This document shows positions 21,856-63,459 of a DNA stretch of 64,000 nucleotides, piece by piece. Origin of the DNA: Saccoglossus kowalevskii (Eukaryota; Hemichordata; Enteropneusta; Harrimaniidae); contig NW_003107588.1 in assembly GCF_000003605.2 (NCBI RefSeq), positions 314,195 to 378,194 of the forward strand. Reading direction: 5' to 3'. The notes beneath the pieces were generated by a model. It was not told the origin of the DNA. It did no database searches and was given only the letters and a program-made list of their open reading frames with translations. Each line of letters starts with the position of its first letter. The first letter of the stretch is position 1. Both the position numbers and the translations under genes were made by a program.

Positions 21856-23777
21856 GTCAGTGGGGGAATCTCGTCTCGGCTCTATATCTCGTCCCCTTGA
21901 GGTGCGGGATCGGGAAAGTCACTTATACTTTACAGCCAAATAAGACACACACAACGAAATACGTTTCAGCTCTCGTCTTAGTCGGTCAATCGAGCACTCT
22001 AGTGTGTTTTTCTATGCAGACTGAAATATTTCCTCAATCGAATGTTCCATATTATGCGCCAGTACTTGCTTAGACACAACCGTTTCAATCAACTTCGAAA
22101 AAAAAGATAAAGTTAACACTGGACGAAAGTTGACAAAAGTCAAATCAAGACCAGTTTTTTCTCAAAACAATTGCCCACTTACACACAGTTGGAACATGCC
22201 ATTCGATAATTATTAAAATAAACAAACAGACAATATGTCACGTTTCACTGAATGACCAGTGATAAATCGGACGCCGTGTCCTGCATCCAGTCAAAGCGGT
22301 TCACAGAACGAGGCGGGGGCTGTTGTATAGCGTGGGACATATAGAACCAACTAGGCTGGAAGCAAATATTCACGACATACACACAATCATGGCGTGTACG
22401 TTTGTTTGAATTCCAATAGAGGATGGATTTGTCAACCCGAAATGATTTACTTCCAGTAGTAGCAATTTTGCATTTCATTATACATGTACTAGATTCAACC
22501 TCATACCACTAATAAACAGAATGGCGACGCGGGTATTTCTTTTGATCTAACGCGTGTCTTGAGTTTACTTTTGCGATAACGTTTTAGTCTTACCAACAAT
22601 TGGGGGAGATGCAAATCATGTCCACAAAGTCACACACGACTTCGCGACAAACTGTGGTGTTTCAGCAGAAGGTGACGCGAAATGTCAGACCGAAGCTTCA
22701 TATTTTCTTTACGTTAGTGACACTTATGTGCCCACAGACATTCTTAAAACGGGTAAAAAGTAAAACAGAAAGTATAAAATTCAATTGCAGGTCAAACTAA
22801 ATAGCAGTGAGAATAAATACATGATCGGCGAAATATAATAACATAAGACCAGCTTTGTTGTAAACATGGTGACATAAATTATCGTAGGAAAATCGAGTAA
22901 CTATCTAAGTAACTAAGAACATCACTATAAAGATTGTCTCTACATTTTGGGCAAAAATATATTATAAAATATATTATACGCGATTTAAAACTATCTCGTT
23001 TCCGGGTGATCTGATCTGAACTGAATACAGAGAATGACTGAAATGCACGCAAGACCGAGGATTTCCAATGTGTGTACTCACCATTCGGCAAAATTTGGTA
23101 AAGCGTGAGCCACCAGAGTAGCCGAGACACGCGTTCGCCGGGGTTTAGGCCGACTGAAACCTCTAAACAATAGCGTTGCCAGTCTGTTTATTAGTGTTCT
23201 GAGATTCAACTAACTAAACACACATCCGCCCACCCCAAACAACCAACTACACAAACAAACACAACTAAATTTAATAATATATTACGCAAGTAAACAAGCC
23301 CACACATCAGTTGGTAAAACCATGATGCCAGTTGAGATCATGAGAAGGAAAATGATAAAGAAAATGTCACAAAATTCTTGTATCGATTTCTCTCAACTGA
23401 TCATATAAACAATAATCTGTGAAACAACTTGTGTGTATTGAAACATGGAATGTATTCAATTTGTATGACAAAACAACAACACTCTATAGCAAATATATAA
23501 TAAAATTCCCGGAATATGACATCAAATAAGAATCAACATAGCTTTTACCGAATCCAGTGTTATTTGTCTTGACTGGTAATATATGATTTTCTGCCGGTAT
23601 CACCAAAATGACAAGATGTCCATTTACATATTGACACTAATTGCACTTAAGTGGTCTAGCATATGGGACACGTTTTACTAGCAACAGTTATAACGAATAT
23701 TTGTAAAATAATATGTAAAACATGCTCTTAAATTTGAATAAATGACCTAAATAATGGCCTTAAGAATTTGTGAATTT

Positions 23778-23908
23778 GTCACAAGTTTCGACGTGGAAAC
23801 GCCAACGTGGCAGCGAGTAACCCTTTATAATGTGACCAACTTGACGTAAGAAGTATCAGATCTGTTGGATGAATCGAGCAATAGCACTATTCCGGACATC
23901 TCTGAACG
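23778..23908 (+). promoter_or_regulatory. CTL-1 promoter block and noncoding first exon
   Basis: GTCACAAG (23778), ACGTGG (23791), ACGTGG (23805) and CCCTTTATAA (23821, TATA-like) precede a putative noncoding exon ending in CTGAACG at the donor GTGAGT (23909). The same elements occur upstream of CTL-3 with the same spacing. The TATA-like box would place the start near 23850. The transcript then joins the acceptor before 24374. Confidence 0.6.
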
Positions 23909-24382
23909 GTGAGTTACACGTCTTTTGTCATTTGTTAGTTCCGTGTGAGTACGTGTTTTGAAAATATTTTATTTATCATCATCGTGATTTCAGTTCACAT
24001 GTTCATTAATTTTTTTAATACGGGTTCTTTTTTCAATTTCGCAACAATTGTAGAGTCACCTGACAGAGTATTCTTAATTTTTCGGTGAAGAGATTTCACC
24101 AAATCGCGGAATTTCACTCAGAAAAAATGGTTTATATTTACCTTAATATCGTTATAACTTGTGATACTATATTCAATAAAAATTTCCATCTAGTGTAACA
24201 TTTTATTTATTTACTGATTTGAAATCTAATATCAAATTAGAAATATGCAATTAATCAAAATTAATCCACAGTGAGCATATATAGCTGGGAATGTTTATAT
24301 ATTTCTAAAAAATAAGTAAATATAAAATTAGTTACAGAATTAAGATTTTTAATATGTTTTTATTTACTCGCAGATTGACGTA

Positions 24383-27300
24383 ATGAATTTCGCCCTTTCC
24401 GCACTAGCCTTGGCTGTCCTATGGACACTGGCTTATGGCAGAACAGAGTTAGCGAACGTAAGTAACATCTTAGAATCTTTTCACGAATGTAAGTGTCATG
24501 AAATCATTTTAAACGACCAAGTATAAAATACAAGCGGTACATTGAATCGTAATAACCCAAAACAACTTTCTGATGATGAACGAAATAACCTATTTTAATT
24601 TGAAACGTAATTAATATTTACTCAATCTACCCAACGGGGTAGCATGCGTGAAAACATTTAGATTAAAAATGTAAGAATTGCTCCAACACACGATAATCAA
24701 TGAAGAATCTACTGAAACCGATTTATCATTTATTTGTGATATAGTTAGAAAAAAAGTTCTGAATAAACCGTCACCTGCGCATGCGTCAGATGGCCATGTC
24801 GTTGTTTACAATTAAGCGTCTACCCACGAGCCTTTGCGTTTTTAGCATGCATTGTTATCGTCGCTTGGAACTCATAAATTAAAAAAACCATAATTTATTC
24901 ATTTTGCAATAGATTGTACTTCAAGGCAATATAAGGATATAGACCTAAAAAAAGTTGGGAGTCACCAGCCTTTTTTTCGAGAAATTGATGGTTGTATTTC
25001 AGTGAAAAGCCGCCATTTTGACACTATTATAATACTTTTACCACAAGTTCATATGGCAGAGATATTATGCAATATCTCACAATCTAGCCTGGTGACATTA
25101 ATGTTAATGATCAAGTACCTTTTGTTGTTCTGATTTTTTTTAAATCCGGGTTTTAAAAAGTGTCAAAAAATGACATTTTTCTTTACCATTGTGTTCTATG
25201 GAATTGATCTAAAAATAGAACTTTTCAAGAAATATTAGGACACGTTTCTCTAAAATAAAATAAAATAAAATAAAATAATGCTATTTCACTGTACCATGAA
25301 ACATTAGCTTCATGATTGTACATAATATACTAATGAACATTGTCATGCGATTTATGATCAATTTTGTCAAAAATTATGACTAGGCTTCTACCTTAAACAC
25401 TATTCTTCTTACATCGCTTACAATATTACACATTCAAAACGAATATTATTTGTGAAAATTGAACAGCTGATTCACCAAGTCCTAGAGATAATACAGATAT
25501 TAAATATTACTATTATATTACACTTTTTCCATTTGTTTTACAGATGATGGACGAAACTGGTAAGTTTATATGTTTAAATATTCGCACAGTTTTCTTTGTT
25601 ATTTTTACTAAAGAATATGCATTGTTACTTGTGCATTTCAAAAAATAGCCCATTGAACTTAAACATTAATTTCCGATCTTCACAGAGGAGCATACTGGAC
25701 CGCTTATAGTTTACAACATCAGTGTTCAGTATTCAACATCTGTTGTTGAAAAACTACTTAAAACCAACAGTTTCCCTGGTGTAAAACAAGGAACATTTTT
25801 CCAAGATATATTTTACCACTAAGGGATAAACCATTTGCAATCTCTAAGTATGCAATTAACCAATTGTCTCCAGCTCCCTACTCAAACATCAAACATGTCA
25901 CCGCTAACTTACATCATCTCTTGTTCACATTCACAGAAGTGTGTGATCCGAAAACAGGCATCGTTTACAAGTTCTTCCCTCAGTTTAGAAACAGATGGGA
26001 TCTCGCTAGGGATAAGTGCCAAGACGATGGCGGAAAGCTGGCCACCATAAACTACCAAGGACTGCATAGACGAATTAAGAGACATATCAATGCCTACCCT
26101 GACACTTTGACGCCCCAGGGCTTGGGATACTGGTTTGGATTGAACGACAGAATTGAAGAGGGTGTATACAAATTCGTGGACAACGAAGACTTTGTCTACA
26201 CGGAAGGCTGGTACTCCGAGGCTCTTGGGGGAGTTATGGTCTCACAGCCCAATAACAATGTCGACGAAGATTGCCATGGACAGGACTGTGGTCAGTTATG
26301 GTGAGTTCACGTGGGTGTACATATAATTACAGATACATTAAACAATTACAGTGCAAGATATTCTGTGCATTTGACATAACATCGAGAACACGAACTTACG
26401 AGAGATGCGTTAGGGTGATTTTCTAGAATCAGAAACAGTAGCGCCCATACAAATTAATATTGTCAATGTTGAGGGAAATTACACCCTATTGTTCAATTAT
26501 GATGAGTGTTTAGCATTTAAAAGGCGGTGGCCGTCGTTATTTTGTTCTTCAATGTGAAGGTACAAATCCATTTGTACGTTTTCGTGTTTATGCAGTAAAG
26601 TAAATTTCCAAGTAAATTTATTGTTCATACAAGAGTTGTTGAACACACTGACACAGTTTGGAATTTCATTCAGCTTCTTTCAGCTATAATTCAAGACAAA
26701 TAATATAAAAAAAATGTAGCGATTTTGTATATAATATTCTTGTGTTATCGGTTAATATGATATTATCGTCGGTTTGTATATGGAATACATTTCTTTATAA
26801 ATTATTTTAAATATATTTCTGTGTTTTCTAGTCAAAATCAGCTGTTTTCTTTCACAATATCGTAGTATTGACGTGTAGTAGATTAGAGACCATCTTCTTA
26901 TCGCAACATGATAATACGTTAACACGGCATCAATCCAGTCAACTCACATTGATCATAAACATCAACATGCCGATAAAGGTGTCGTCACGATTAGTCAGTG
27001 GTTATATATATATAAAGTCAATTATTGATCACAAACGTTACGCCCATTAGACAGTACTCTCATCACTAATTCATTTCACATATTTCAGGCGACGTCCCAA
27101 ATCAGGTCCAGCATATGACTTTGATGATGCTTACTGTCTGGAGCTTAAATCGTTCATATGTGAATATCCAGCAGGTATGTTAATTGTGAATAAAATATAT
27201 AAAAAAATAAAACATCCATTGAATGTTCGGAAATAAAAACACAGACAACATGCATAACTCCCGGAGCTATGATTGTTGAAGAATTGAAACAACTTTCGGA

Positions 27301-27552
27301 CGATATATCATGGAGTGTTATTATACATGATGCCGTAAGAATTGACTGCACCGGTCTGTAACAAGCTTTAGAAATAAATAAAAAAAACAGCTGATGGAAA
27401 AACTAAACACCTGAATTCATTTGACACGAAACGAACATGGCTTGATATTTTCTAAACAAGGGACAAAAAAGTCACCAATCTTTTCAAAGGCATTGCTAAT
27501 ATCATGGTTTTCTTTCATTACAGGCACTGGCGGATGTGTTATTGAAGCTTAG
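24383..27552 (+). CDS. CTL-1, secreted C-type lectin-domain protein
   Basis: Coding exons: 24383-24457, 25544-25559, 25937-26300, 27089-27174 and 27524-27552 (189 residues). The first exon encodes a signal peptide (MNFALSALALAVLWTLAYG). A 16-bp microexon adds MMDET. The main exon encodes VCDPKTGIVYKFF, GGKLATINY, LHRRIKRHIN, GYWFGLNDR and EGWYSE, then VSQPNNNV and CHGQDCGQLW. The next exon has FDDAYC and SFICEYP. The tail is GTGGCVIEA. QPN plus DD occupy the places of the EPN/QPD and WND calcium/sugar motifs of CTLDs, so calcium-dependent sugar binding is possible, but the specificity is not predictable. There are seven cysteines in the mature protein. An AATAAA follows at 27676. The start was chosen because it opens the signal peptide and is the first ATG after the acceptor at 24372-24373. 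Confidence 0.9.
24775..24875. repeat. Dispersed ~100-bp repeat, copy 1 (CTL-1 intron)
   Basis: The block TGCGCATGCGTCA..ATGGCCAT..GT, GTTTACA, AAGCGTCTACCCA, TTTGCGTTTT and GTTATCGTCGCTTGG recurs in CTL-5 intron 4 (61705-61811) in the same orientation, with good identity by eye. It is probably part of an interspersed element. The GCGCATGCG core is a near NRF1 match. Confidence 0.75.
24995..25405. repeat. Dispersed repeat, copy shared with 5620-5980
   Basis: It lies in CTL-1 intron 24458-25543 and has the same ordered landmarks as the copy in the ATPase intron. It is interrupted by an (AAAAT)n microsatellite at 25251-25277. Confidence 0.65.
25251..25277. repeat. (AAAAT)n microsatellite
   Basis: About five units of TAAAA in tandem, inside the dispersed repeat in the CTL-1 intron. 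Confidence 0.9.
26301..26495 (+). other. Conserved intron block shared by CTL-1 and CTL-3
   Basis: The first ~150 bp of CTL-1 intron 4 match the start of CTL-3 intron 4 (47111-47260) at about 85-90% by eye. Landmarks are GTGAGTTCACGTGGGTGT, AGATACATTAAACAA and GATTTTCTAGAAT. A second island, GGAAATTACACCCTATTGTT, follows in both (26474 and 47450). No open frame explains this. The other CTL introns lack the block. Confidence 0.8.
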
Positions 27553-27889
27553 AATGCATAATGCAGAACTCTAAAGTGGAAATATTTTTGCTTCAGCATC
27601 AGCACGAAACAACTGAACGACGCAACGAAAATAATTAATGAGACGAACTTCTCCTCCAATCAGAAATATGTTACAAATAAAAATGTATAGGTATTCAGTA
27701 ATTTAGTTATGTGTATTTATTGTTCATAGTACGGTAAACCAATAATAAACCAATAACTCACCAAATATGACGTTTATTTTAAATATAATATATTTTTTTC
27801 TTACTGTTTCCCCTCTCCTTTAAAAAGTGTTTTAAAATTGTTCGCAACACCGTGTCTACTTTTACTCTGGTCTATTGGAAGAAGACGAT

Positions 27890-27954: not shown

Positions 27955-30900
27955 TTGCCTGAAGCCCATTCTTCCATGATGTTTGGTCTGATCGTGATGA
28001 GTATACTCATCAGTAAATTAGTTTGGTTTTTAAATCGAACATTGGCAGGGCATACAATTCTTGAATCACCTATACTTTTGAATTAATATGCTTGATGCAT
28101 CATGTCGACGTACCGATTGCCTTATGTCTGTCGCCAATATTAATTAAATTAAAAGTAACAAGGTAAAGTGTTTACCTTAATAGTTCTAAATGGATTCACA
28201 TCCGACTAACTTTATATTTGTTACGAGACAGCGTAGCAACTAATTTGTCCACTGCAGTCAAAATGACCCTAACCTAAAATTATTCGTGATTGTTTCCCCC
28301 TGAAATTGGCCTGATCGCAGTTATTTGTTTGAATAAATTACAAAATTTATACATTATCGACTCGTCTCTGTCTTTTAATGTGTATTAACAGCAATCCGAG
28401 GCTATTGTAATATTTCGGCATTTAGTGACGAGATCAGCTCATGGGTATCGTCCCATGTAGTATTTTTGCAAACCATGTTGCAAACTCGTCATCCTTTTCC
28501 AAAAAAATATTACTTTCCGAAAAAAAGTTAACACCGCAAATATCATGAGTCGCTTTCAAAAGGTATCCTACTAGATTGAACATTATACTGTTATTATCTT
28601 GTATACAGCTAAGTTACAGTAGAAATGTCCAATATAAGTTCTACCGATGGTCTTCCGACAATAGATTTGACTTTGTACGAACTTTGTACTGCAAACTGGT
28701 TGTTACGGAAGAGGCGACATTGCTGATAATCTGGGATATTCGTCCACGTGTCCCAGTGTTGATAGAACCATCACAGTATCACCGAATCCGGTTTGTTTAT
28801 TCAAGCTCTCCGGCAATTACATTTGGATAAAAAGACAAAAAGAAGATAAACATGAGTAAAAAGTACATGTATACAAAATAGTATGTGATTGCGCAAGACA
28901 ACAACGATCTAATTGGATTAAAACTTGTATGTCAAAAAAAATGTATGTCTAGAAAATAATTGTTTTTTCACAACAGATGAATTAATATTGATCCATTATT
29001 TCTTTATTAAATTTTCTTGACATACTGATTTATTTTAATAATTATTCAAAATAATTATGTCGGCCATAAATCAAATAGCGAGCTTGCGTCTTCAATAACT
29101 GCCAGTAAGCTGACGGTAACGTCGCATCTATATTCCGTTCATCGTAATCGATTTTAGCTACATTTAGCGAAATTACAGATTAGCTGAATTAGCTAATAAC
29201 GTGGCCCGTGTTTTATTAATTATCAAACGAATAAGTGTATCCTTCAATGTGACGTAATACAGAACAGATGGAAAATACTTATTACACAAAAGTGTCATGG
29301 ACTTCGAAAGTGTCCCTTTAGCATTGCCGTCAGTTCTAGTCCTGGCTCACTAAATCGCCACATCTGATACACACTGAGCATAACCCCATATCTTACTGTA
29401 TATCAACACAGACGGCCAATAGTTCCAAACTTCTGAACTTCCGAGTTCATCTACGGATTAGCGCGAATAGTTCATGTTGGCAAGCACATGTGTTTGTTAC
29501 TATTCAGTTACTTAACAAAATCGGTTGAAATTCCAAAAAAATAAATCCTAGAAAATATCACGTATATTCGAATGTGGCGTATCTCAGTATTATTTCCACT
29601 TTCAACACTCAGCTGTTCAACTTTTTTAGCAATACATGTTATAAATATATACTAGTAATCCCACGAGATTGACGTCAGTATGAGTAATTACTGCAGGAAT
29701 ATGTATGGCGAGGATTGATGCAATTCTGGCGATAATCACGAGTGTCTGCTGACGTCAAACTAAAACACAAATGGAAGAATTATATGTATTCATCCACCAT
29801 CAAAGTCAAGAGATTGCAAGTAATTTTGATTGATCAATTGCAAAGGAGTTATCATCTCTTTCAAATTAGAAAACTAGGTAAATACTTGGTAATTCATGTA
29901 AATGCACAACTGATAATGTGACTCGATATGATTATGCAAACTATGATGGAGGTAGATTTAGATATTAAGGATTTTATTTGTAGACAAAATAATAAAATAT
30001 CATCTTCAGTTCTTGTCCAGTGCATTCAACATTGTTATGTTAATTCGCGCACTGAATTAAATCACCTGCCAGTCTTGTTTAGTGTATCGTTTAATTTTGG
30101 TTTTATTGGCAATGCAGCCAAGGGCAACATCCAAACCCTTTTAACCAAATTCTACAAATAATGCACAGCTATATACAACGAATTTCCCCTCGCACAGAAA
30201 TGACATATGATTAACGTGTCCCACTTTACCAAAACGCGTGGTTTGATTCCGAGTGTAGAAAGTTTAAAAAATACAATTACAATTACAAATACAAAATTTT
30301 GATTGAGTAACGCGTCACAGAATGCAGATACGGGCATGAAAAACATGAAAGTCTGGCGATTCCAAAAATATCTTTTTGTAGTCATTTAGTCACAATTAGA
30401 AGTATGCAAATATAAGTCTCGCTATCTTAAAGATGGATCAAAATGTACGTGTGTAGAAAACTTGAACAACTTGCTGTGCATACGTGATTGCGGAATGTGT
30501 GAGTGAATTAACAAACATAACAGGGAGACCTTTCTTATTACAAAAGCACCATTTACATCAATGGTTGTGACAATAATCTGACTTTATTTGAGTATTCTCA
30601 TATCACATACACAACTTTTATTGTGCGCAGTAAAATGTATCCGTGCTTGTATATAACATTAAGATAAACGTAAAGAATAACATTCGGAATATGGGTGTCT
30701 AGTTGTGAGTTGGGCTGTTAATTCTGCGTGTTTTAATATACAAGATGGAGTGAGATGAGGATGAATAATTTTCGCTCATGTATTTGTTCTTTATATGAAT
30801 GATTTGCATAACCAGCTCGAACAGATGTAGTGTTTTGAAAAGTGGACGTTTAGCGCAACTAAAGTAAACTTTGAAACTTTATTCCAGCATTTTGCATTTT

Positions 30901-36423: not shown

Positions 36424-39400
36424 ATGAAACTCCAGTGTGTGATAATAGTGGTGTTATTTGTGTCATCGACTTACGGTGTTGATTTAATACAGGTAAGGTT
36501 GCTATTCTGCTGGAATTGTTACACGTACTATGTTGACATCATTCAATTCTATGAACACATCTTGGATTGTTTATTTCTCGGTTAACTTTTGGCTCACCCA
36601 CAACAACTCATCATTTTTCATAGTTTACGTGCAGTTTAATCCCAAAGTCAACTTTGCAGTCCGGTTACATTACAGTAATAGATCGTTTTAGGGTAAAACA
36701 AATTCGCAAATGTCAAAACGGCAAAGAATTCTGCGTCTAGACTGGTCCCTCGCTGATGAAAGTATGGGCATATTGCGCCATGTTTTAAAAGACTTCATTG
36801 ATTACTTGTTATGTATACGGCGGAGTTTAAGATTCTGTTGTTTGTAAGATTATAAATAACCAAGTACCCGAATATATATCATATATGCTACATTAATGAG
36901 TTCAATCATGTTCGGGCTTTAGGTCATGATCTCCAGATTGTCACTTGGTTGTTTCTGGAGATTATCTACCTGTGGGGACATGACATTCGATGTTTATTGA
37001 ATTCTCTGCCAAATTATGTTAACAACATTCTTTATGGCTGATTTAAATATATAAATGAATATTCAAACCATTTAGTTTGTACATATTTTTTTCACCCCTT
37101 CTTTTATTTATTATGTAACATTTGATTTATTATTAGACCAGTGTTCAAGTGTAAAAAGCGCAGTCTAATTAAATATGTTATGTAGGCAACATAGAATTAA
37201 GTCTATTTGATCCAAAAGTAACAGAGATTTTTTTATTAAATACATACACAATTGCATTTCTACGTCATATCAAAATTATGTTGGAATAGATGTGTCGTTG
37301 TAAAGGTTAATTATATTACAAGAAAGATTTGCATTATACTTACGTCATAGTTACCAATATGAGACATTATCGGTCTATCCTCAATGTAAGACAATTTTAA
37401 CGAGTGTGGTTGGAAGGTGAATGTTTTAGTATACTATAATGGGAGCAGTATAACGAACATATGTTTCAATCAGGCATTATTAATGACAACATCATTGGCT
37501 ATCGGCAACAAGAACAATTAGAAATGTACACAGCGTGCGATGTTTATGATATGACACGAATATGACGTCAGATATTAAATACTTTTCTTATATATTTAAT
37601 TTCAGCTATCTGGGGAAAACGGTATGTTAACATGTTTTGAACTACTATTATTGTAATATTAGAAACGATGATGATCTGTCATGTCCATGGATATCATTGA
37701 CCAGATAGATGTGTTTGTGCGCTTACATGTTACGATCAGCCAGTATGAATATATGACATGGATGTAATATTATTAACAGAGAAATGCTAATAAAGCAAGC
37801 AAAATAAAGAAATCTCCAAATAAAAAAATTATGAATGTTGTTCGTTCATCCACAGATGTATGTGACCCCGTGAGCGGTATACGCTATAAGTTCTTCTATG
37901 AAAGCAAGAGCACATGGACTGTGGCGGTTGATGACTGTTTCGCCGATGGAGGGCAGCTAGCCACCGTCAACTATTTGGGACTGCACAAAAGGATCAGGAG
38001 ATACATCAACTCACAGCCGAATATTGTAAACCCGCTAGGGGATGGTTACTGGATTAACGGAAATGACAGAATGGCCGAAGGTTACCACGTCCTACTCGAT
38101 GGCGCGCCATTGACTTATACCGAGGGTTGGCATTCCGAGGAGGTCGGAGGTGTGAACATTACACAGCCCAACAACAATGTAGCAAGAGACTGTCACGGCC
38201 AGGATTGTTTGCAGTTATGGTGAGCTAGTTAAAAATTGTTTCCGTAATAGGAACGCATCTCAATTACTAAACATAAAATGGCGCTACTTCCGTTTCCGGT
38301 CAACATACATCAACTAATTGGCTTTCAAGTGTTCAAAACCTTTTGCACCCTGCACAGTCTCAAAGTGAAAAATCAAACAAAACATAACTAAATAGAAATA
38401 AACAAATGAAGTAAATACAAGTAAATCTTCCACCAGTTGAAAGCTCTTTGTTCAACAAAACAAAATAAAAAACACCTCGACTTACATTCACATTGGTATT
38501 TTTTATTTGACAGGCAAAGACCCAAGAATGTACCTGGAAAACTGCCATCTTGGAATTTAGACGATGAATATTGCTTTGAACTGAAATCATACCTTTGTGA
38601 ATATCCTGGTATGTATGGCTTAGCGAGCACTTCCGGTCAATGGACGACACTAAACGAGATAACTTCATAAATGTTTTTTTTTTCAAAATAAGCCAATTTT
38701 CTAGCAACGGACTGACCATAGTGTCACTCTCATGGTTCAAATCCGTATGTTAGTTTCGTGTCACCTTGACTCAAAATGGTGTGTAACGCCATAATGAGTC
38801 CTACTAAACTCCAGTAAGATGCGGGAAATGATCGTAGATATATTACATAGAAATACATGGAATATTTGTTGGATATATTCTCATTTAACACAAACCGGAA
38901 CAACGATTTGAATTTTTTGAAAATTTAAATTCTCAATATTGATGATTTATATCCTGGTCGGCCTGGTGGTATTTAAAATACGTGGATATATCAATTTGAA
39001 TTTAAATCCCGAATATTGAGGATTCTGTGATCATGCTCAGAGCGGACTAATCATCTTTTTCAGAACGACCGTCCGGTTTACGGCCGTCTTCGTTCACTAA
39101 TTAATCAATATATTGTTGACAAGGTATTTCCTCTTTAAAATACAAGCATAGAAGTGACTGTGTAATATTGCTGTATAAAAGACAATGTCTAGATGTTCAT
39201 TTTCGTTTAGGAGATGCAATATGTGTTTGGATAATCGTAGAACAACTTCACTTAGCATGATCATGGACGGACTGGAACCAAAAAACTGCCATGTACTTTC
39301 CGACTGGGGGCGGGGGCAATAGTGCTATACTGGTCTATTGTTTGTCATAACAGAACCCACACAACTATTTATGATTGTTTATTATTAGAACACTAATATT

Positions 39401-45222: not shown

Positions 45223-45343
45223 GTCACAAGTAGCGACGTGGCCCCGTCGACGTGGCACGGAATATCCCTTTAAATAAGATTTACTGCTAAAGGTAGTTTC
45301 ACAATACTTCAGGAGATAAGCACTCCTCCCGCAATCTCTAACG
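45223..45343 (+). promoter_or_regulatory. CTL-3 promoter block and noncoding first exon
   Basis: GTCACAAG (45223), ACGTGG (45236), ACGTGG (45250) and CCCTTTAAATA (45266) have the same relative distances as in CTL-1 (13, 14 and 16 bp). The exon ends CTCTAACG at the donor GTGAGT (45344), close to CTCTGAACG of CTL-1. It joins the acceptor ATATTCAG before 45988. Confidence 0.65.
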
Positions 45344-46015: not shown

Positions 46016-47967
46016 ATGAAGTCTGTCGTAATATCCTTAGCCATGCTGTGCACGTCGGTCTATGCCACAGTGGATTTCTACCAGGTGGGTGTGGTGTCGT
46101 TGCCATGGTATTATTATTAATATACCACTCAGCAATATCGAAATAATCACTCAATGAAGTATAACAATAAATCACTGAGCCATAACAGAATATTTATTTT
46201 ACTAAATAACAGTGTATACATTTGCTGGATTTGAGTGTCATCCATAGTATACACGGTACAACTACAAACATTATGCATTCAATATTGCACCATTCATGTG
46301 TCTATTCGCGTATATTGTGTCTATTCGCGTATATGGTTGATCTTGATATCGTGTTTTAATTATTAAATATAGTTATTATAGTGTTAAAAAATGTTGTTTT
46401 CATTGTAAAGATAATATTTGTTAATTATTTTCTTTACTATTTTTCAATTGTTGCTAGGTTGGTGGTCCAGCGGGTAAGTCAAGTTTATCCAATCATTTAA
46501 CACTTTCATGTCGTCATTCACCGGCGACCACGTTTGCAGACAATTAATAGTTTGATAATCCAAAAATTTCTCAATCGTTGTTAATGACCCACATAATCGA
46601 TATAGAGGAAACATAACAGAAATAATAGTATTCCTTAGAGATAGTCATTGTTCACAGGATACTCGCGCATAGTCAAAGCGTTCAAAACGTTAGAGACGTG
46701 AAATATAATGACTGGTGCCAAATTAACGTGACTTATTTTAATCTCATAGAAGTATGTGATCCTTCAAATGGCATGCGGTACAAGTTCTTCTACGACTTGA
46801 AATATACCTGGTTAGCAGCCAAGGACGCATGCGCACTCGACTCTGGGGTATTGGCTAAAATCGACGATTCGGACTTACATAAGCGATTCCGAAGATATAT
46901 CAACTCAGAAAATGATATAAAGAATCCTATGGGTGGTGGTTACTGGTTCGGACTTAATGACAGACTGGTGGAAGGCTCATTTGTGTTTATCGATGATACT
47001 CCTTTATCTTATGACGGGTGGAGTTCTAGGAAGGTTGGAAAAAAAACCGTCACACAGCCAAATAACAATGTTCAGAAAGACTGCCACGGACAGGACTGTG
47101 GTCAATTATGGTGAGTTCACGTGGGTGTTCCTATAATAACAGATACATTAAACAAGTACAGTACAAGCCATTCTGTGCATTTGACAATACATCGTGAACA
47201 CGAACTGATGAGAAATGCGTTGGGTTGATTTTCTAGAATTAGAAACACTAGCGTTCATACAAATAATTTTGTTTCAATCGATGACATCAGAAACTTCGTT
47301 TTAGTGTTACAGGCAGATATAGTCGATCATTTTCAAAATATTGATATATGTAAAAATATCTATTCACTAATGACAATGATGAGTGTAATGATAATGGCAA
47401 GTCAATTGTTTCACGCACCCATTGTCGCATTTGAATATTGTCAATGTCAAGGAAATTACACCCTATTGTTCGGAAATTCTTTTTAAAGAACTGTGCATAT
47501 AAAATGTTTCACGATTATGTAATACGTCAAGATTGTTTGTTCACAATTTTTATATGAAAGGGTTAAATAATTTATTTCCTGTCTATTAGGCAATTCCCGA
47601 AAAAGCGAAATAAGAACGCCACATGGCATTTTGATGATGCATACTGTTTGGATAAGAAATCTTTCATCTGTATGTACGAAAATGGTGAGTAATAATTATA
47701 TTTTGTAAATAACAGCAGGTTTGTTGCTTAACGGTAAAAAACAGCCCAACGAGTACACGGATTAAACATTACGTACTACAATAAATAGCGTTTCTTCCCT
47801 GATCTAGTACATTGCACGACAAGTACACCATATCAGTGTGTGGCTACATCGCAGTAAATTTGTGAATGTATCATGTAGTTATTTTAGTTTGCCGCTGTGT
47901 CGTGTCGTTCTTTACGTTGTGCTGACACCTATGTTTTGTTCTCGTTACAGGATGTTCAGACGAATAG
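46016..47967 (+). CDS. CTL-3, secreted C-type lectin-domain protein
   Basis: Coding exons: 46016-46084 (signal peptide starting MKSVVISLAMLCTSVYA), 46458-46473 (16-bp microexon, VGGPA), 46750-47110, 47590-47684 and 47951-47967 (185 residues). Motifs are VCDPSNGMRYKFF, LHKRFRRYIN, GYWFGLNDR, VTQPNNNV, CHGQDCGQLW, FDDAYC and SFICMY. The tail is GCSDE. The CTLD exon is one codon shorter than in CTL-1 and CTL-2. GG.LATVNY is altered to SGVLAKIDD, and the following loop diverges. This is the most compact gene of the cluster, at about 2.7 kb including its first exon. Seven cysteines are in the mature part. An AATAAA is at 48296. The role is inferred as secreted carbohydrate or surface recognition. 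Confidence 0.9.
47111..47470 (+). other. Conserved intron block (CTL-3 copy)
   Basis: Partner of 26301-26495 in CTL-1, with the same donor-proximal 150 bp and a downstream GGAAATTACACCCTATTGTT island. The two islands are separated here by about 190 bp of extra sequence. Confidence 0.8.
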
Positions 47968-48301: not shown

Positions 48302-51300
48302 GACGAAAAACAAAATCATTACCGTTATTACTGTGAATATCACGTCGGTGGGTAATCAATACAATATATTTCGGTTAAACATAGAGATCTTTATCTCATG
48401 TAGGGCCTACGTAGATACATTGCTCCTTGATATTTAGATGACGTTGTCAGAACGTACTCCGCTGATGAGTATTTTGTTAAAACGACATTTGATTTAACAA
48501 AACTGATGCGTTTTATATTAATTTTGGCTTGTTACGAAAATACAGTTATGTTTTGTGGTGATATAATTCAAATATGGACATTACAAAACTTTAAGTCCAG
48601 ATCACTTTCATTGGACCCTTCATTTTGTTCCCCATTATTACTTTACTTACTTGGCTCAAATAATACGGTAATTATAACACATCTTTTTATAAATTTTTTA
48701 TATATATATCAGTCAAACTAATTTATATTTAAAAACGACAAAATATACATAAGTATGATTTAAATGTAAAAATATTTTTTTATTTGTCAGTAATAATAAT
48801 AGCAGGAATTTCCGATTGTGGGGATTTGTTTAACTAATGTGACACTGAACTAAACGACCATCGTGGGTCCTAGAAAAGAAGAAAGTGCAACCACGGAATT
48901 TTAATTGAACGATTTTATATTAATTAAGTAAATCAATACCCACACAAATATGTATACTGTTTATTTCGAGTATTCTAGCAGTTACATAAATTTAGTCATC
49001 TTAACAAAGCCATACGTTTTAAAAATTGCAACAGGTTTATGGATAATTGAATTAGTACACACACTATAGATCCACGCAATATATTCTGGCCTATATGAGA
49101 AAGTGCTCCATTTAACATATTCAGCAAACAGCTGTAAAAATCTCTGTTTTCACCACCATTTACATAATTTTACCTCTTCTAAAGAACATTTATCATATAA
49201 ACAGATTATTTACTGAGACCAGTAAATTCTCAAAGACTATTAAAAATGGAAAGGGGTTAATTTGGATCACAGGAAATCCAAATACTCGGGAAATCGGGTA
49301 ATAACATTTTCTGTGGTGACTCTTTTTTCAAGATAATCCAGTGGGTTAAGTACGCAAAAAACATCGTAAAGAACACGTTTAAAATGTTATATTAGGGTCT
49401 ATGGTGATATCAAATGTAAGTATATTAATGTAAGCTTATGTGAAACATAACATACTTAGCTTGTCGATTTGTCAATTTATTTATAGCTATGTGCACAGAC
49501 CAGAAGATCTAATACTGTTTTTTTAATTTATGTTAGTTATGTTGGTTGCAGTTGCGTTCATGGTCTTTTTACTTTCTTTAAGCGACTTCTGCTCGGTCGT
49601 TTACTACGTTTTTTATTTCATCTTCATTGAATAAAGAATACATTTAAAGAAAATATACACGCTAAATATACACTTAAGCTACTGTCTATTCTATACGTTC
49701 CCGTGACTGCTGCAAACAAAGCCCAAAGGTTCAACAACAGTTTTCAACACATATTCCACACCGGGACGGAAGGTGATACTGCCCGGTGAACGTTTGTACG
49801 TATCCACGTTGATCATTGTTAATAGTTGTTCATAATGATAAAAATAAGAACGACTGTCATCCTAATGATGCACATACCATTTTTACCAATCCCCCACAAA
49901 CAATTCACTGTATTCGAAAATTTCAATTTAACATGGTAATAATATAAATAACCCATTACCAATGTTGCCATGGTATTCGGAGCACTAAACGCAATGGTGA
50001 CAGAGAATAAAACAACTTGCGTGTTTATCTCGCTCTAAGGAAAACAGAAATTAGCTTCACTATTTTTTCTTGAATTTTCCACGATTACAACAATTGCAAC
50101 ATCACCTGTTACATAGTACCGATTAACATTTTTTAGCAGTAACCGTCACAATACTAAAGCCCTCGTGATCGTCATCAAAATGGTAATAACATGTCCAACC
50201 GTGAATCAAACAATCTAAAGCCGTGTGAGGAAAATACAATTTCATAAAAACATAACAGCAAAAAACAACATTGACAGGAAATAAACAATGCATTACACAA
50301 CAGAAATCAGTGAAAGTTTGGTAAATGGATCTCGATTGTGAGATAAAACGGTGATGTCAGATGTTTTGAAAAAAATAGTCACATCCTGCTCAACAAGTGG
50401 CACCCGTCATACAACGACCTGAGTCAATCTGTTATAACAAAATACATTAATACGCCCCGAGATTATTTGTTTATGTAAATATGGCGTAACGGTAGGGTTA
50501 TATGAGTGGTTATATTACATCACATACTTGCGTAGGCATGCTCTCGTATACGCATTTGACATCGCTGTTACCGTACTGTAGTGTATCGGTGAGATTATAT
50601 TACGTTGCATTTGGACACTACATATGAATTATTGAATATATGGAAGTCACATTATGCAATTGGCATGTAGAAATTCGTTGGCGTTATTTGAAGATATTAT
50701 AGCATATCACGCAATCATAACGAAATACACTGATGATGTCAATAATAAATGTACGTTTGCGTTATTGTTGTCACGATATTTTGAAAATTGTCAAATAACT
50801 CATTGTACTGTGTCAAATAAGAGAATCCCAATAATCTCATATAATGCATTGTTTTTTTGTTTCTTTCCCGCCATTTGTTAATAATGATCAAAACCGTGAG
50901 AGGCAGGTAGCGTGACTGACTGGGTATAACACGGAAACGGTCGGCGCCATTGATCGCGAGTCTTCTCTGCAGACACTAGAAAGCGTCACTGAACGCGTAC
51001 ATCACCTACACACAGTTGAATGGTCAAGCGTTGCGAAGCCTTGTGATTTTAGTTATAAAAAGGGAAATTATTAATCAACAACTGAATTGCTGACGTAGAT
51101 ATCTAACTCAAGACGTGAACGAAACTAGTGGTAAAATCTTGAAAATGGCAGGTGATTTTTAGCGGTTACAGGTGTGTCTGAACTTCTTGAATTTTGCAGT
51201 ATAAGAAAATCGTATGTGATGAGTCATTTCTTTGCTATGTACACGATAAAACCCACAATTAAGCATTGTTTTTATTCCTAAACGATGTACATTTTCTAGT

Positions 51301-52080: not shown

Positions 52081-52495
52081 GGTCAAATACACTAACATCG
52101 TCGCCATAGATACTTTAATACCGGTGATAGCATTGGCGATGTTATTGACATCGGTTCTCGGTATGGATTTAGTTCAGGTGAGTCACGTAACATCTCAAAC
52201 GCTATTGTAATAGTTGCATCCATGTCACGGGATGTGGTATACCAATCTGTGATCATTCAACTTTGACGTTTTGAGTTGGGTATGGGACTGATGGTGACCC
52301 TATAAAATAAGAATGTTGAACACAATTATCTTTAACCGTGACAGTAGCTTCTCAACATCCCGACTAACATTTGGTGTTGTATTCATTCATTACAGATGAG
52401 TGGTGAAGATGGTAAGTCTTATACGTTTCTTAAGGTGCTCAATACACTTTTACGAACGTTTTACGATTTTGTTTACTGCTATACTATATATTACT

Positions 52496-52990: not shown

Positions 52991-55283
52991 CTCACTAGAC
53001 CGTAAACATCCCCAGATGTTCCTATTCTAAAGTGTGTGTTTGATTGGCGGGCAGATGAAGGCATGTAATAAAAGGTCATGTGTGAAAAAACACACACATT
53101 GGGTACGACGCTATACGTTTAGATAAACGTGGTGTTATTGTTTTTTTGAATTAATACGTGCGACTTTATGGGGAAAGTAAAATCCGTTGCAATTTTTTAA
53201 TCTCGAGATAAAAAAAGTTTCTGTGACTATATGTTGAAAAAATGGGGTATGAAACTATTTGTAAAGACGAGGAAGTTATGGCAATTTGTCCAATGCTAAC
53301 AGCACGCTCGGTGGCGAGTGTGTGTTCGTGCAAATATAAACTTCCGGTCGCATGAGATTATGCTTTCCGCATACTAAAGAATTATACTCGTAATTCTATT
53401 ATATTTAGTTTCCTAATGAAACGTAATATAATCTCATTGATACATTACAGTACGGTACAGCGTTAATTGATTACAAATCATGCAAGAGTGTAACCAGAGC
53501 AATAATTTCAAATGATCGACCCCCTAAGTCCACATAAATAAAACTGTGGATAATTTGTGGAAGGCAATTCATTGATTTCAGGTTGAAAATCGTTCAATCA
53601 TTTTTTGCGAACAAACAATATATATTACAGGCTGCGAGTACGTCTCGTGGGACTCACGTCGAAGACGAGAAGTGCGAAGACCGTGGTGTTTTAAGCAATG
53701 GATTGTACACCCACATCTTACGTTGTTTCCTAATGTAATTTGTTCGGCATAAATTCCGAGATAAAAATAATAAAAAAACAAAACAAAGTCAATGTTACGA
53801 TGATGTTAAACTGGTGTTTATAGACGGGAAAAGTATTGAAAGGAAAAAACTGGGTACGATAAACTGAAAAAATTGACACTATTCCTGTGTTTCGTATTTT
53901 AATAGATGTATGCGATCCAAACAGTGGAATTCGGTATAAATTCTTTCACGGCACCAGAGTAGAATGGGAAACAGCCAGGGATACTTGCAAGTTCAATGGA
54001 GGGCAGCTAGCCATCATCAACTCTTCAGAATTGCATAAGAAAATCCGACAACACACCAAATCAAATCACAGCCAAACATCGCAGCCCCTGAAGGGTTGGG
54101 ATATTGGATCGGTATTGACGACAGACGAGCAGAAGGTATTTTTACTCTGAGTGATGGTAATGTGTTGACATATACTGATGGATGGCATATACAAAATGTT
54201 GTGAGAAAAATAATTCAACAACCTAATAATAATGTTGAGAAAGATTGCAACGGACAGGATTGCGTTCAATTATGGTAAGTACTGATTGCAAGGGTGGTAG
54301 AGGGAATCCAGGTTCCGTGAACTATAGTTACAGTGTTATTCACGCAAACATCTCGTTCACGGTGTTGCCAGTTTATGAGCCGCATCAAGTCAGATGCGAA
54401 CGATGTGTGTGAAATATACTATCTGTTAGCTCACTGGAGAATGAAACGTTTTGGTTGGAAAATCCCTAATAAAAATGGGGCAGGTTTTTATCGTATATCT
54501 GTCGGGTATGTATTTTTAGACATTTAGTATACAATAGAAGTATGCGTATATATTGGTCTAAAATGAAAGTATGGATTTTTACTTTCTCTAATTATTAAAC
54601 TTTTTGCAACTTATTATTCAGGAAATTATGGTACACAGACATGTGACATGCTAATGTCAGCCACTTTAGTTTGATTGATTGATAATTTGTACAGACAATC
54701 CAATATATCGTGTTGCATAATATGTCCATTTGCTTTAACAACTCTCAGGCGCCACCCGAAAAACAGACCCATGTGGAATATGGACGATGACTACTGTTCA
54801 GATTTAAAGTCCTACATATGTGAATATGCAAGAGGTAAGGTGTACCAGTCACGTGCCCGTCACGTGACATAAACGTAATAATATTTGTTGTAAATTACAT
54901 GTATCAAGAAAATAACATGTCAGTGGATATACAGAACAACTGAACGACAGCCGTATGTACATTGGTTGAATCACTTAAGAACTTCCGGTCAGATTATGGT
55001 TATTGTTTAATAAACGTTGTTGTTTAATTAGCGTTCTCAGGAATTGCGCATTCTAATATGAACAAGTAATATGTTTTCATTGCATGCGTACTGTACACGT
55101 AGCGTGGTACCCATAAATATGACAAACGACACGGTAATATGAATGTGACGATTTCATTTGTCTTTCAAATGGTAAAACCTGACATGAAAGATGATGTGAA
55201 AGCAAATTATATGTATTTTATTTCTTATTCCAGGCTGTCCAGATTTCATTTCTACGTCAGAGGGCGTCAACCAGATATATTAA

Positions 55284-57861: not shown

Positions 57862-58176
57862 TGGCTGTAGTCGTCGCGTCACGCATGCGCGAGATATATG
57901 GGTTCCATATAAACAAAGATGACAACTTTGACTGTTACGCATATCAACAAGTACAACGTGAGACGTTACCAAGCTTTAATTAGATATTTTTAGGTGATTG
58001 CCAGTGGAAGGTATCGAAAGGGTCATCAGCGCTCATTAGTGCAAATTGCGCGAAGGTCAAACCTCATACTTGTGATTTCCATTAGAAGAGCACATTGGAT
58101 TGTGGGAAAATCAATGTGTATCAACACAAATGACGCACATGCGCAGCGCGACGACCACCGTCCTTTAACTGTGAAG
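57862..58176. repeat. Dispersed ~300-bp repeat, copy 1
   Basis: In CTL-5 intron 1. Landmarks are GTCGTCGCG, ATAAACAAAGATG, AAGCTTTAATTAGATATTTT, GGTGATTG, GGTCAAACCTC.TACTTGTG, TATCAACACAAATG and CATGCGCAG. The second copy is at 59007-59294 in the same orientation. Small ORFs here are shadows. Confidence 0.85.
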
Positions 58177-58350
58177 ATCAGATTATCAACTGCGGTTACA
58201 TAGTTTGAGTTGCGTCCTCTGCCGACGAGAACAAACGAAAGCATCTATGAGAGCACAAAAGCCCGCTAGATTAAAGAACTCCCACGACGCAGAATAATAA
58301 AGTACTATTTTTTTTAACCCAGAAGCTGCAAACATTTGAACACACTCACT

Positions 58351-61300
58351 ATGAAGTTAATGATAACTATTGTGATATCAATGACAATGATTTTGTCATC
58401 GAGTTGCGAGCTCATACCGGTAAGTAATTCTATATTATACCGCTACCACATGTGACCCAATACCATATACTTACAATAATGTTAATGAAAGGTTGGAAAG
58501 GGATCTCAATGAAAGGAAACACACAATGTGCTTTCAATGGACTATTGTTTTTTACATGAGCCAATAGTATTTTTATGTTTTCAAACCGAATTCACATTTT
58601 GTACTACTTGCTGTTGAGAACATGTGCACTGCATTATGGGAAGGAATTGTCATTACATAATTGTTTAAATAATATTCTCTCACTAGGAATCCATTAAACT
58701 CTATGTAATTATTTATAAACGTGTAGCACTATTAGAATTCATAATAATTAGAATTTAAGATCTTTCACCCACTGTCACCAAGCACAATTTCGAGATATGA
58801 GGACAAACCTTCAAATCCTAGCAACAAAAAATAGAAATAAAAAATCAAATTTCGGAATTTTCCATGACACTTTAGACTCTATTTTAACAAAACATTGTCC
58901 GATGGTCAGAAGGGAGGGAGGGAGGGAGGGAGGGAGGGACGAAGGTAGGGGTCTATTCTGCAAATCATTATAGCATTGTTTTATTCTAAATCAATAAAAT
59001 GTTAAAGGGCGCTGGTCGTCGCGCCACACATATAAACAAAGATGGCGACGTTGACTGTTAAGCAGACCAACAAGTACAAACTGAGAAATTTCCAAGCTTT
59101 AATTAGATATTTTTTGGTGATTGGAAGGCATCGAATGAGTCTCCGGTGGTAATTAGTGCAAATGGTGCCCAGGTCAAACCTCGTACTTGTGATATATTTC
59201 GAAAGGCGTATTGAAATATGGGATCAATCAATGTTTTATCAACACAAATGTCGAACATGCGCAGTGCGGCGACCACAGCTCTTTAGATGTGAAGCTATGA
59301 CGTTCTTTGATATTATAATTTTCATTTTGGATTTATGCAAATTAAAAAAATGTCGTCAATATAGATTTTTTGAATGTATGATCCCAGGGACCAACATCCA
59401 TAAATGTGTATAAGCTCAAAATCTAGGTTGGCCACGTTGTCTGTAGGACAAGATGTAATCTTTAATTTAATTCACAACCCTGCCGTTCTTGCCATGGTTC
59501 ATTCGGATTGGCTACATTCAGGTATATATTTAAGTCCCCGGTTCTGACAAACTTTAAAGAAATCTGTTATACCATTTACTCAGAATAGTTTGACAAATTG
59601 TTACCAATGTTTTCGATAAAGGTTTCACACGAAATGGACACTGTAGAATAGCTTTAATATTAATAACACTAATAATCCATTTCTGTTTTATTCTAGATTA
59701 CGTTTGATGGTAAGTTTTTTTTTTAGTAAATATGCATTACATCCATTCTTAATATATAAGAAATACACGATACTACGTTTATACGCTTGGGTCGTTGAAG
59801 GATACTATCAGAAAAGAATTAAATTTGTAATATAATTACCCAATTTTGGGGTGAATAGTCAGTGCTGTTGGTACTAAGCGGAGGTTATAAAAATGTCGTC
59901 TGCGGGTCTAAACTAAATATTTACCAAACACTGGCACCAATGTAAATCCTTTTATTGAATGTATAATGTATACAAACAAATTATACAATGCGTTCTCAAC
60001 ATTCTATCCAATCAATAAATCCAGACTTCACTTCTATATATGCTTCGACGCAACTGCCTGAGATATGATAGCTTGATATACATTATTCTGAAGGACTATT
60101 TTAGCCGGGTAGATTCGAAATAGAATAGACATTATGGCGGACATGGTGAAGTAGTCTGCCAATATAAAACTACTTGCCTGTAAATGATATAATAATAATA
60201 ATAAAAAACACTGTAAAAATTAGTTACAGTACAAATAATGTCGACGCAGTTGTTTTTATTTATAAGTGATACATTACACAGCTTAATGTGAACGATATTG
60301 ACAGCTTTGTCAGTTTCTTAATCTCGTCGCTAGAGGCGCTATTTATAAGTAAAAATCATGCGCGCGTTTCCAGCGTTTGTTTTAGACAAAATATTTGAAC
60401 TATTAATTAAAAAACAACAACAATTAATCAATTGGATATGCACCTTTTATCATTACCACTACAATAAATATTTTTCGTTTTCGACATTGTAAAATCCTTT
60501 CGTTTTTATGGAGAAAAATACCAAAAATAGTTTTACCAAGTAAAATATTTATAAGTTATTTCTCATACATGAGTTATTGACACGCGCTACATAGTTTGTG
60601 ATTTCATTTAACTCCTTTCAATCATAATTCAACAAAAATGAAATATAAAATTATAGAGAATATGCTTTGTTTTTAATATTCATGTGAAATTAGTAATTAT
60701 GACAATTATTATTAGTGTGCCTATAAAACACACTTCGTTATGAATTAGTATATTTATGAATTTTCAAAATCAGGTGCTTTCAACGAAGAATATTACAATG
60801 TCGAACACAGAACGTCTTTGTCGTAGTGTTATTCTCTCATTACATTTATTACAGAGGTATGCGAGGAAGGGATGCGTTATAAGTTCTACCCAAACTCCAC
60901 ATTAGAATGGGAACAAGCCAGAGATTTTTGTGAAAGTGAAGACGGGTTTCTTGCGACCGTAAATTATAGGGGTTTGCATAAGAGACTGAGAAAGTACATC
61001 AACGCGAATCCGGGTCTAGGGGAACCGTATGGAAATGGTTACTGGATTGGTCTAAGTGATAGAATGATCGAAGACGTGTTTATGTGGACTGATCTCACTG
61101 AGCTGACCTATCACGAGGGGTGGAGCGAAGAAAGGATTGGTAGAAAAACAGTCGTGCAACCCAACAACAATGTGAAGCAAAATTGCAATGGACAAGACTG
61201 TATTCAGATGTGGTAAGCGTATTTGCGTATTTATTAGTTATTCTGACATTGACCCTTGTACTAGGATGTCGCTATATATCATAGTGTAAAGGCCATTTGT

Positions 61301-62992
61301 TTCATCGTGTCAAATATTGTGCATTTTTTTTGCATACAGTTTGAACTGTTGCTCAAATTTAGATTTTTTTTAATTTTTTTTTGTCTTTTATAATTTTTTG
61401 TTATATATATATTTTCCAAAAAAGTACATTACTTCAAAATAATCTTACATGACAAAAAGATATACAAAAATATAAGTAACAACATAAAATGAAATGATAA
61501 TAGAAAGGAGAAGGGGGGAAAGTGAAAAAAAAAAATGGTTGCTCAAATTTAGATTACATGTACGATTTGGTGAAATGTCTGCTTGGCAGCTAAGAATTAT
61601 GCGTTGTACCGCTGGATCTAAATAAACTTATCGTCGTGTGTATTCGAACAAATCTACAATGTAGTCTGGAAGGATTTCTTGAAATGACACACTTGAAGGA
61701 GTCGTCATCTGCGCATGCGTCAAATGGCCATAGCGTGTCATTGTTTACAAACAAGCGTCTACCCATGAGTCTTTGCGTTTTAGCGTGTGTTGTTATCGTC
61801 GCTTGGGACTCAATTCCCGCGCGTTCGCAGGTGACGATCCTCCCGCCTTAAAGATATTGTCGTGAGTGCTAAATTCGGAAAAAGCTAGTGCCACCCTCAA
61901 TTTTGATATCTAAATTCAGAAAACAAAATTACTACCATGAAGCAATGATTTGAAAATTATGAATTTTAAAGAAGTTGCTGTTGACACTGGCGCACCAATT
62001 TATTAAATGTTGGTAGCGATACGGAACAGGTTGCTATGGAAACAACAATTGAGAGCATGATTTATTTGTGGTTACTGTAATTTCAAACTTATTAGATATG
62101 TTGATAAGTCTAAATAATAAATAATTTGACCCGATACAATATTCGAATTTTTTGCATTAAATATTCGTAACGGTTTCAGAATTAGACAAATATTATCATA
62201 GTTGTTTTATGTAATTTGTCGGAATTGTAGATATTCTTAAACCAATATTGTAGAAATTACATTTGAGTGAAATTAGTCGCCACTAATTGTTGAATTGTTG
62301 AGGTATGAATGAAGAATCATTCCACTAATTGTTGTTTTCATGGCAAGCAGATCTACATCTCTACCAACATTTAGTGAATTGGTCCGTGTGCCAAAAGAAA
62401 CTACATTTGACAATTTTATGGGATTCCATCAACAATATTTTGAATCTTTCGTTCTATACTGGTCATTTTTTTCTGAATTTGAAGGCCAAAAAGACAAAAT
62501 CAAGCGTGGCGTTTGCCGTTGAATTACGCATCCCAACATTATCTTTAAATTAAAATTTTATCACGAAATTACCACGTACCAACGTTCAAGGTGCTTATTG
62601 AAAATCGAGACTAATAAATTTTTCATTTCAGGCACAATCCAGCAATCGATGGGAAACTAACATTGTGGGCATTCGATGATGACACATGTGACGTAAATAA
62701 AGGCTTCATCTGTCAATATACATCAGGTGAGTATGTACCCATTCGCGACAAGACGAGACCATATAGAGTAAGTTTGGATAGAGATCGAACTAGAAGGTTA
62801 AGACAACGCATGCGCAGGCCCGATGCTCAACTTTTTGTAGTTTTCAGATTCAATGCTGGGAGCAATTGTTGTCAAATAATCCAGATTGTGATACACCGAT
62901 CATATTCGACATTGAGATGAAAATTTGATCTGCGAATAATGTATATGTTTTATTTTTCAGGTTGTGAGGGCGTCACGGCGGCTCCTCTATAG
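58351..62992 (+). CDS. CTL-5, secreted C-type lectin-domain protein
   Basis: Coding exons: 58351-58419 (signal peptide starting MKLMITIVISMTMILSSS), 59697-59709 (13-bp microexon, ITFD), 60855-61212, 62632-62726 and 62961-62992 (188 residues). Motifs are VCEEGMRYKFY, an NST sequon, FLATVNY, LHKRLRKYIN, GYWIGLSDR, VVQPNNNV, CNGQDCIQMW, FDDDTC and GFICQY. The tail is GCEGVTAAPL. It is the most diverged member, with a shortened start to the domain, an acidic stretch CESEDG in place of C..DGG, and DLTELTYHEGW. Introns hold two copies of a 300-bp repeat, a GGGA microsatellite and a short insertion flanked by an 18-bp duplication. All seven cysteines are kept. The start is the first ATG after the acceptor at 58321-58322. 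Confidence 0.9.
58911..58939 (+). repeat. (AGGG)n microsatellite
   Basis: Seven consecutive AGGG units in CTL-5 intron 2 (58420-59696). The run of GGG tracts on the transcript strand fits an intramolecular G-quadruplex. Confidence 0.9.
59007..59294. repeat. Dispersed ~300-bp repeat, copy 2
   Basis: In CTL-5 intron 2. It shares the ordered landmarks of 57862-58176 (for example AAGCTTTAATTAGATATTTT and CATGCGCAG..GCGACCAC), with several small deletions. The family is unidentified. Confidence 0.85.
61348..61555. mobile_element. Short insertion flanked by an 18-bp target-site duplication
   Basis: GTTGCTCAAATTTAGATT occurs at 61348-61365 and again at 61538-61555, enclosing 172 bp that begins with T-runs and ends in an 11-A run. 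This fits a short retroposon inserted by LINE machinery into CTL-5 intron 4. The two homopolymer ends leave its orientation open. Confidence 0.8.
61705..61811. repeat. Dispersed ~100-bp repeat, copy 2 (CTL-5 intron)
   Basis: Partner of 24775-24875: CTGCGCATGCGTCA, ATGGCCAT, ACAAGCGTCTACCCATGAG and GTTATCGTCGCTTGG in the same order. It lies shortly downstream of the 18-bp-flanked insertion. The overlapping 71-codon ORF is a shadow. Confidence 0.75.
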
Positions 62993-63459
62993 TTTGTCAT
63001 CCAGTACCTAAGTACCCAACTTGGTTCCCGGCATGCAACAGTCGTGGTGACAATTCCTTGCGCCCTATTTGCAGTTAAGCCTAGTAAACACCAGAATTAT
63101 CTAGAAATTGTCTCGTCAAAAAAATTTCCTGTAAAATCACACCTTTTTGTTTTTAGATAGTCGTCATTTATGAGTTTACGATCAACGTGTCAAACACAAA
63201 CAGTTAGTAAATTAATATTAATTAACAGTCATCCAATATATGTATTTGCTTCATTTGTACATTCTGACATAATTATACGTCATATGAAGCCCAGTGAAAA
63301 AGCCAAGTAGTGCCATTATATGTTAGTGCGTTTACGGCACATAGTGGTGTACAGCATATTCTTATCTGATCATATTAGAGCCGGTCTCACCCGGAAGTGT
63401 CCTGGCACACCTGTAAAACATATTGCCAAGTCAGTATTTTGAAACATGATGAGCTACGT

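Follow-up and report, generated by a model that had tools for sequence, protein, structure and literature searches.

A tandem array of putative secreted C-type lectin genes in Saccoglossus kowalevskii, with one probable pseudogene

What kind of proteins is encoded by five similar genes lying one behind the other in the genome of the hemichordate Saccoglossus kowalevskii, how old is this group of genes, and do all of its members still look functional? The question is raised by a stretch of 64,000 nucleotides (contig NW_003107588.1, positions 314,195 to 378,194), called the window in the following, for which an earlier note had described a cluster of five genes for secreted C-type lectins. The sequence makes it probable that animal C-type lectin genes form a tandem array of old date at this locus; g1, g2, g3 and g5 look intact, and g4 is a probable pseudogene. 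The intact members look like proteins of about 185 to 190 amino acids with a single C-type lectin-like domain (CTLD), the end of g2 being uncertain, and the products are most likely secreted single-CTLD lectins of a known kind. What is claimed here is membership in the CTLD family; lectin activity is a prediction.

Gene order and exon plan

The five CTLD exons were located by stop-to-stop open reading frames (ORFs) and by comparing the CTLD-coding exons with the whole window in tblastn, and the gene models were built by hand from splice signals. All five CTLD genes lie head-to-tail on the plus strand between positions 24383 and 62992, in agreement with the earlier note. The exon order is a signal exon, a microexon of 13–16 nt, the CTLD exon, an exon with the end of the CTLD, and a tail exon. 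The features are given below with the evidence in brackets.

23778..23827, +, promoter-like block upstream of g1 (78% over 50 nt to the g3 block)
24383..24457, +, g1 exon 1, signal peptide, phase 0 (gene model; hydrophobic run)
25544..25559, +, g1 microexon, 16 nt (gene model; microexon scan)
25937..26300, +, g1 CTLD exon, 364 nt (Pfam/ORFs, tblastn, gene model)
26239..26463, +, g1 side of the g1/g3 tract, CTLD exon end and start of intron 3 (self-comparison)
27089..27174, +, g1 exon 4, FDDxYC ... FIC, CTLD end (tblastn, gene model)
27524..27552, +, g1 tail exon, one cysteine (gene model)
36424..36492, +, g2 exon 1, signal peptide (gene model; hydropathy)
37606..37621, +, g2 microexon, 16 nt (gene model; microexon scan)
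37856..38219, +, g2 CTLD exon, 364 nt (Pfam/ORFs, tblastn, gene model)
38514..38608, +, g2 exon 4 (gene model)
45223..45272, +, promoter-like block upstream of g3 (78% to the g1 block)
46016..46084, +, g3 exon 1, signal peptide (gene model; hydropathy)
46458..46473, +, g3 microexon, 16 nt (gene model; microexon scan)
46750..47110, +, g3 CTLD exon, 361 nt (Pfam/ORFs, tblastn, gene model)
47049..47272, +, g3 side of the g1/g3 tract (self-comparison)
47590..47684, +, g3 exon 4 (tblastn, gene model)
47951..47967, +, g3 tail exon, one cysteine (gene model)
52106..52177, +, g4 signal-exon remnant, aligned start codon ATA (gene model)
52396..52411, +, g4 microexon, 16 nt (gene model; microexon scan)
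53906..54274, +, g4 CTLD exon, 369 nt, with a frame break near 54059 (tblastn, gene model)
54749..54834, +, g4 exon 4 (tblastn, gene model)
55234..55283, +, g4 tail exon candidate (gene model)
58351..58419, +, g5 exon 1, signal peptide (gene model; hydropathy)
59697..59709, +, g5 microexon, 13 nt (gene model; microexon scan)
60855..61212, +, g5 CTLD exon, 358 nt (Pfam/ORFs, tblastn, gene model)
62632..62726, +, g5 exon 4 (tblastn, gene model)
62961..62992, +, g5 tail exon, one cysteine (gene model)

The CTLD exon lengths of 364, 364, 361, 369 and 358 nt in g1 to g5 match exactly those given before; the 369 nt of g4 are divisible by three and the lengths of 364, 361 and 358 nt leave a remainder of one. 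Comparison of the CTLD exons with each other by tblastn yielded E values from 2.4e-48 to 1.6e-12, far past chance. The microexon measures 16 nt in g1 to g4 and 13 nt in g5. A scan of the 64 kb for an acceptor and a donor enclosing 16 or 13 nt found 13 matches on the plus strand (four of them within an array of 41-bp units at the end of the window) and 19 on the minus strand; all five intervals between exon 1 and exon 3 hold their microexon, and a second match occurs in the g4 interval only.

The exon-end phases 0/1/2/1, which the earlier note had assigned to all five genes, were recovered in g1, g3 and g5 and in g2 through exon 4, but not in g4, where the shared plan, with the frame break, yields no continuous protein. 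The number of five genes holds for the CTLD genes present, four of which look intact. A short tail exon lies 349, 266, 399 and 234 nt (intron lengths) beyond exon 4 in g1, g3, g4 and g5, in g4 as a remnant, but has no candidate at the expected distance in g2.

The encoded proteins and their relatives

The spliced proteins of g1, g3 and g5 have 189, 185 and 188 amino acids, and g2 reaches 181 amino acids through exon 4. Searched against Pfam Lectin_C (PF00059), a check which the earlier note had proposed, the proteins of g1, g2, g3 and g5 scored 33.7, 25.6, 35.2 and 48.3 bits, all four above the cut-off of 22.6 bits. The three other intact proteins are 51, 47 and 41% identical to g1. Their N-termini are hydrophobic and signal-like, as judged by a simple hydropathy window and not by a signal-peptide predictor. 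Exon plan, Pfam matches and alignment thus bear out the tandem arrangement of genes for small CTLD proteins which appear to be secreted.

Invariant in all four aligned intact proteins are QPNNNV, GQDC, a DD pair and the last two cysteines of the domain. The DD pair precedes the third canonical cysteine in each of them, and QPN, at the position of the EPN/QPD-type motif, is found in the four intact genes and in the g4 fragment. The four cysteines which we take to be canonical, going by the CTLD fold, are present and invariant in the aligned proteins. Past the assumed signal region g1, g3 and g5 have seven cysteines each: besides the canonical four there is one in front of the domain, another between QPN and GQDC, and a last one in the tail; the loop cysteine past QPN is present in all four intact genes. 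The proteins would be secreted, would bind Ca2+ and sugars via the QPN...DD site and could serve as soluble recognition molecules, for example in the binding of microbes at mucosal surfaces. The four canonical cysteines would pair as usual and the N-terminal cysteine is assumed to pair with the one in the tail. As the number of seven is odd, the additional one, in the loop that joins QPN to GQDC, may stay free and perhaps give rise to a covalent dimer.

Among solved proteins the closest in sequence are CTLDs of Lymphocyte antigen 75 (E 4.3e-09), macrophage mannose receptor 1 (MRC1, E 5.7e-09), the PLA2 receptor and mosGCTL-1 (E 2.2e-07). The 12 and 29 solved sequences listed as matches are presumably all CTLD proteins, judging by their names and by what these proteins are known to be. 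Members of the macrophage mannose receptor family are large receptors with multiple CTLDs, in contrast to the short proteins of the cluster with their one CTLD. A pattern search gave 36 matches and no relatives in viral contigs, and 23 matches with two relatives in genome contigs, both in Lachnospiraceae metagenome-assembled genomes (contigs L001 and L002, positions 3001-3234 in each, 33% identity over query residues 50-142, the CTLD part), which are of no use for placing the animal.

Large families of genes for small secreted proteins of the sugar-binding type are usual in animals. For bivalves they are treated in two papers, PMC12842671 and PMC10140915. Bivalve C-type lectin (CTL) repertoires are large, with approximately 200 members and up to 300-500 in many species, and comprise lineage-specific subfamilies including single-domain members which are small, secreted and expressed in mucosal tissue (PMC12842671, PMC10140915). 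The CTLs of subfamily A, common to all bivalves and in Mytilus expressed mainly in gills and digestive glands, resemble the cluster proteins, compared by description only, in small size, signal peptide and a single CTLD (PMC10140915). Several bivalve CTLs possess QPN; MmCTL4, AiCTL5, VpClec-4, PmCTL-1 and TgCTL-1 carry it at the carbohydrate-binding position like the cluster proteins, but have WxD where the cluster has FDD or LDD (PMC12842671). The cluster proteins are further set apart by the added cysteine between QPN and the canonical second cysteine. In the excerpts of the two papers neither the cluster nor its cysteine plan was met, no search having been aimed at the latter. From this literature a lineage-specific immune expansion, as suggested in the earlier note, appears plausible.

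Age of the array and alternative readings

Over the body of the CTLD exon the proportion of synonymous differences (pS) is 0.72-0.94 and that of nonsynonymous differences (pN) 0.30-0.38, with pN below pS in all six pairs of intact genes. These values come from our own count in the style of Nei and Gojobori, for which the Jukes-Cantor correction became infinite in five of the six pairs. Such synonymous differences near saturation argue against a recent rapid burst, and a recent duplication is not indicated for any of the six pairs. By these counts the gene copies are of old date and, averaged over sites, under constraint. Diversifying selection at single sites may be compatible with an averaged pN below pS.

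Some points limit the reading as an array of lectin genes. A structure prediction restricted to the CTLD exon (4 sequences) reached a mean predicted local distance difference test score (pLDDT) of 46.5, too poor to lend support to the fold. For g2 no tail exon candidate was found 234-399 nt past exon 4 when a polypyrimidine tract and a stop within 25 amino acids were demanded; looser candidates lie at 39064, 39211 and 40309, or alternatively the donor is read through to a stop ending at 38670. Further, the canonical WND has no match, the region reading YDFDD, WNLDD, WHFDD and WAFDD, with FDD (g1, g3, g5) or LDD (g2) in its place, and binding of Ca2+ or sugar may be lost or altered. Together with the extra cysteine which all four intact genes carry in the loop after QPN, this replacement would fit CTLDs which no longer bind sugar and have a structural, biomineral-matrix, adhesion or enzyme-binding role. 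We regard such a loss of sugar binding as rather unlikely, because the invariance of QPNNN and of the DD before the third canonical cysteine is what is expected if the Ca site is used, and because M6 and M7, lectins with F-x-D in the WND place (QPD/FLD), are tabulated as Ca2+-dependent binders inhibited by asialofetuin (PMC12842671). F-x-D or L-x-D replaces WND in some lectins, and WND variants are found in working bivalve lectins (PMC12842671). Within the lectin array as preferred here the state of g4 has to be judged separately. Its CTLD exon was split by tblastn into two frames meeting near 54060, and a 5-nt direct repeat stands at 54059, the site of the frame break. In the alignment ATA takes the place of the start codon, and the in-frame ATG that comes first after it falls within the hydrophobic stretch. 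The only piece of g4 that was scored, the ORF fragment on the N-terminal side, reached 20.2 bits with Pfam Lectin_C, below 22.6. Because frame break and ATA are two separate lesions, g4 is best read as a probable young pseudogene. That g4 is intact in the animal, the lesions being assembly errors or the start lying in an upstream exon, so that there would be five working genes, appears improbable in spite of the canonical GT...AG ends retained by all four introns, the open frames on both sides of the break and the lack of a stop in the 40 codons that precede the ATA in frame, by which a more distant upstream start, or one in a different exon, would be permitted: the lesions are two and separate, the 5-nt direct repeat is unlike a homopolymer-type error, and the 40 upstream codons examined contain no ATG.

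Self-comparison of the window revealed that 26239-26463 in g1 and 47049-47272 in g3 are 86.7% identical over 225 nt, a tract made up of the QPN-loop end of the CTLD exon and some 160 nt of the intron after it. Over the initial 165 nt of intron 3 g1 and g3 agree at 139 of 165 positions (0.84), and all nine other pairs at 0.38-0.50, about the level of chance; a control with 40 shuffles, made for g1/g2 only, had a mean of 0.43 and a maximum of 0.58. The exon body of the same two genes, by comparison, is identical at 155 of 299 positions (0.52), the second lowest value among the ten pairs. This pattern is likely to reflect gene conversion, by which g1 and g3 would have exchanged DNA across the region which codes for the sugar-binding motif. 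The exon portion of the tract speaks less clearly for it. The last 62 nt of the CTLD exon are better conserved in all ten pairs (0.85 in g1/g3, 0.61-0.79 in the nine others), and over the last 21 codons the synonymous difference of g1/g3, 0.48, is not far under the 0.55 of g1/g5, the five other intact pairs ranging from 0.55 to 1.09. As the synonymous difference in the exon is so little reduced, the support for conversion comes from the intron. Alternatively, the tract might be a conserved functional element of regulatory DNA or RNA. The two genes also have in common a promoter-like block of 50 nt (78%), from which co-regulation may follow, each copy containing two ACGTGG words at a distance of 14 bp and the g1 copy running into a TTTATAA sequence; in the 3 kb upstream of each gene no similarity at E 0.01 was found for the other nine pairs. 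ACGTGG words occur in both block and tract, though they are frequent in the window (15 on the plus strand, 16 as complement), and an additional match of 39 nt (92%) between g1 and g3 lies downstream of the tract (26456-26494 and 47434-47471). We nevertheless consider a conserved element less likely, since the similarity runs across the exon-intron border and the predicted RNA fold of the intron tract is ordinary (z of -0.61 and 0.07, computed on the initial 149 nt of the two introns). Going beyond gene conversion as the likely origin of the tract, one could imagine a seven-cysteine CTLD subfamily in which the cysteine of the binding loop locks pairs of lectins face to face and conversion moves the exon end encoding this loop between members; this is a speculative picture and has little probability.

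The cluster is largely ordinary and does not change the general picture. It is a small and clear case of how a gene cluster ages, with a strictly kept exon plan and one copy probably lost, to which the probable local exchange of DNA over the binding motif adds a further facet. The loop cysteine is an added feature of interest in the cluster proteins.

Surroundings of the cluster

The window is AT-rich, with a GC content of 0.27-0.39 in steps of 2 kb, and its genes are of animal type and contain introns. Scans with Rfam and for tRNA genes found nothing in it. A profile built from the proteins of g1, g2, g3 and g5 was run against 2967 six-frame ORF pieces of at least 15 amino acids in search of further decayed CTLD copies; among the best 40 matches only the known exons were convincing. 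The piece ranked after these, 49813-49944, had an E value of 0.46 and no Pfam match, and a CTLD look-alike picked by eye at 28549-28830 was rejected for lack of a Pfam match.

The upstream neighbour of the lectin cluster is a gene for a P5B-type ATPase. Its exon at 3876-4121 on the plus strand has polyamine-transporting ATPase 13A2 as best solved match (E 3.5e-19), and the gene perhaps spans 1617-6100, the pieces at about 1617-1928 and 6000-6100 having been placed in it by eye only. A Pfam scan of the ORFs at 1617-1928 and 3876-4121 gave no match. Between g2 and g3, at 41950-42318 on the plus strand, lies part of a reverse transcriptase (RVT_1 in Pfam, E 5e-08), a remnant resembling a long interspersed nuclear element.

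A large array of about 76 copies of a 32-bp unit occupies 9180-11625. The 41-bp array, with about 13 copies, follows shortly past g5 and reaches the end of the window (63472-64000). Two copies of a dispersed repeat (79%) flank exon 1 of g5 at 57906-58176 and 59029-59294, and a short one (85%) occurs at 24769-24874 in a g1 intron and at 61703-61812 in a g5 intron. A match of 242 nt (69%) between 26615-26849 in intron 3 of g1 and 60553-60781 in intron 2 of g5 is probably another dispersed repeat.

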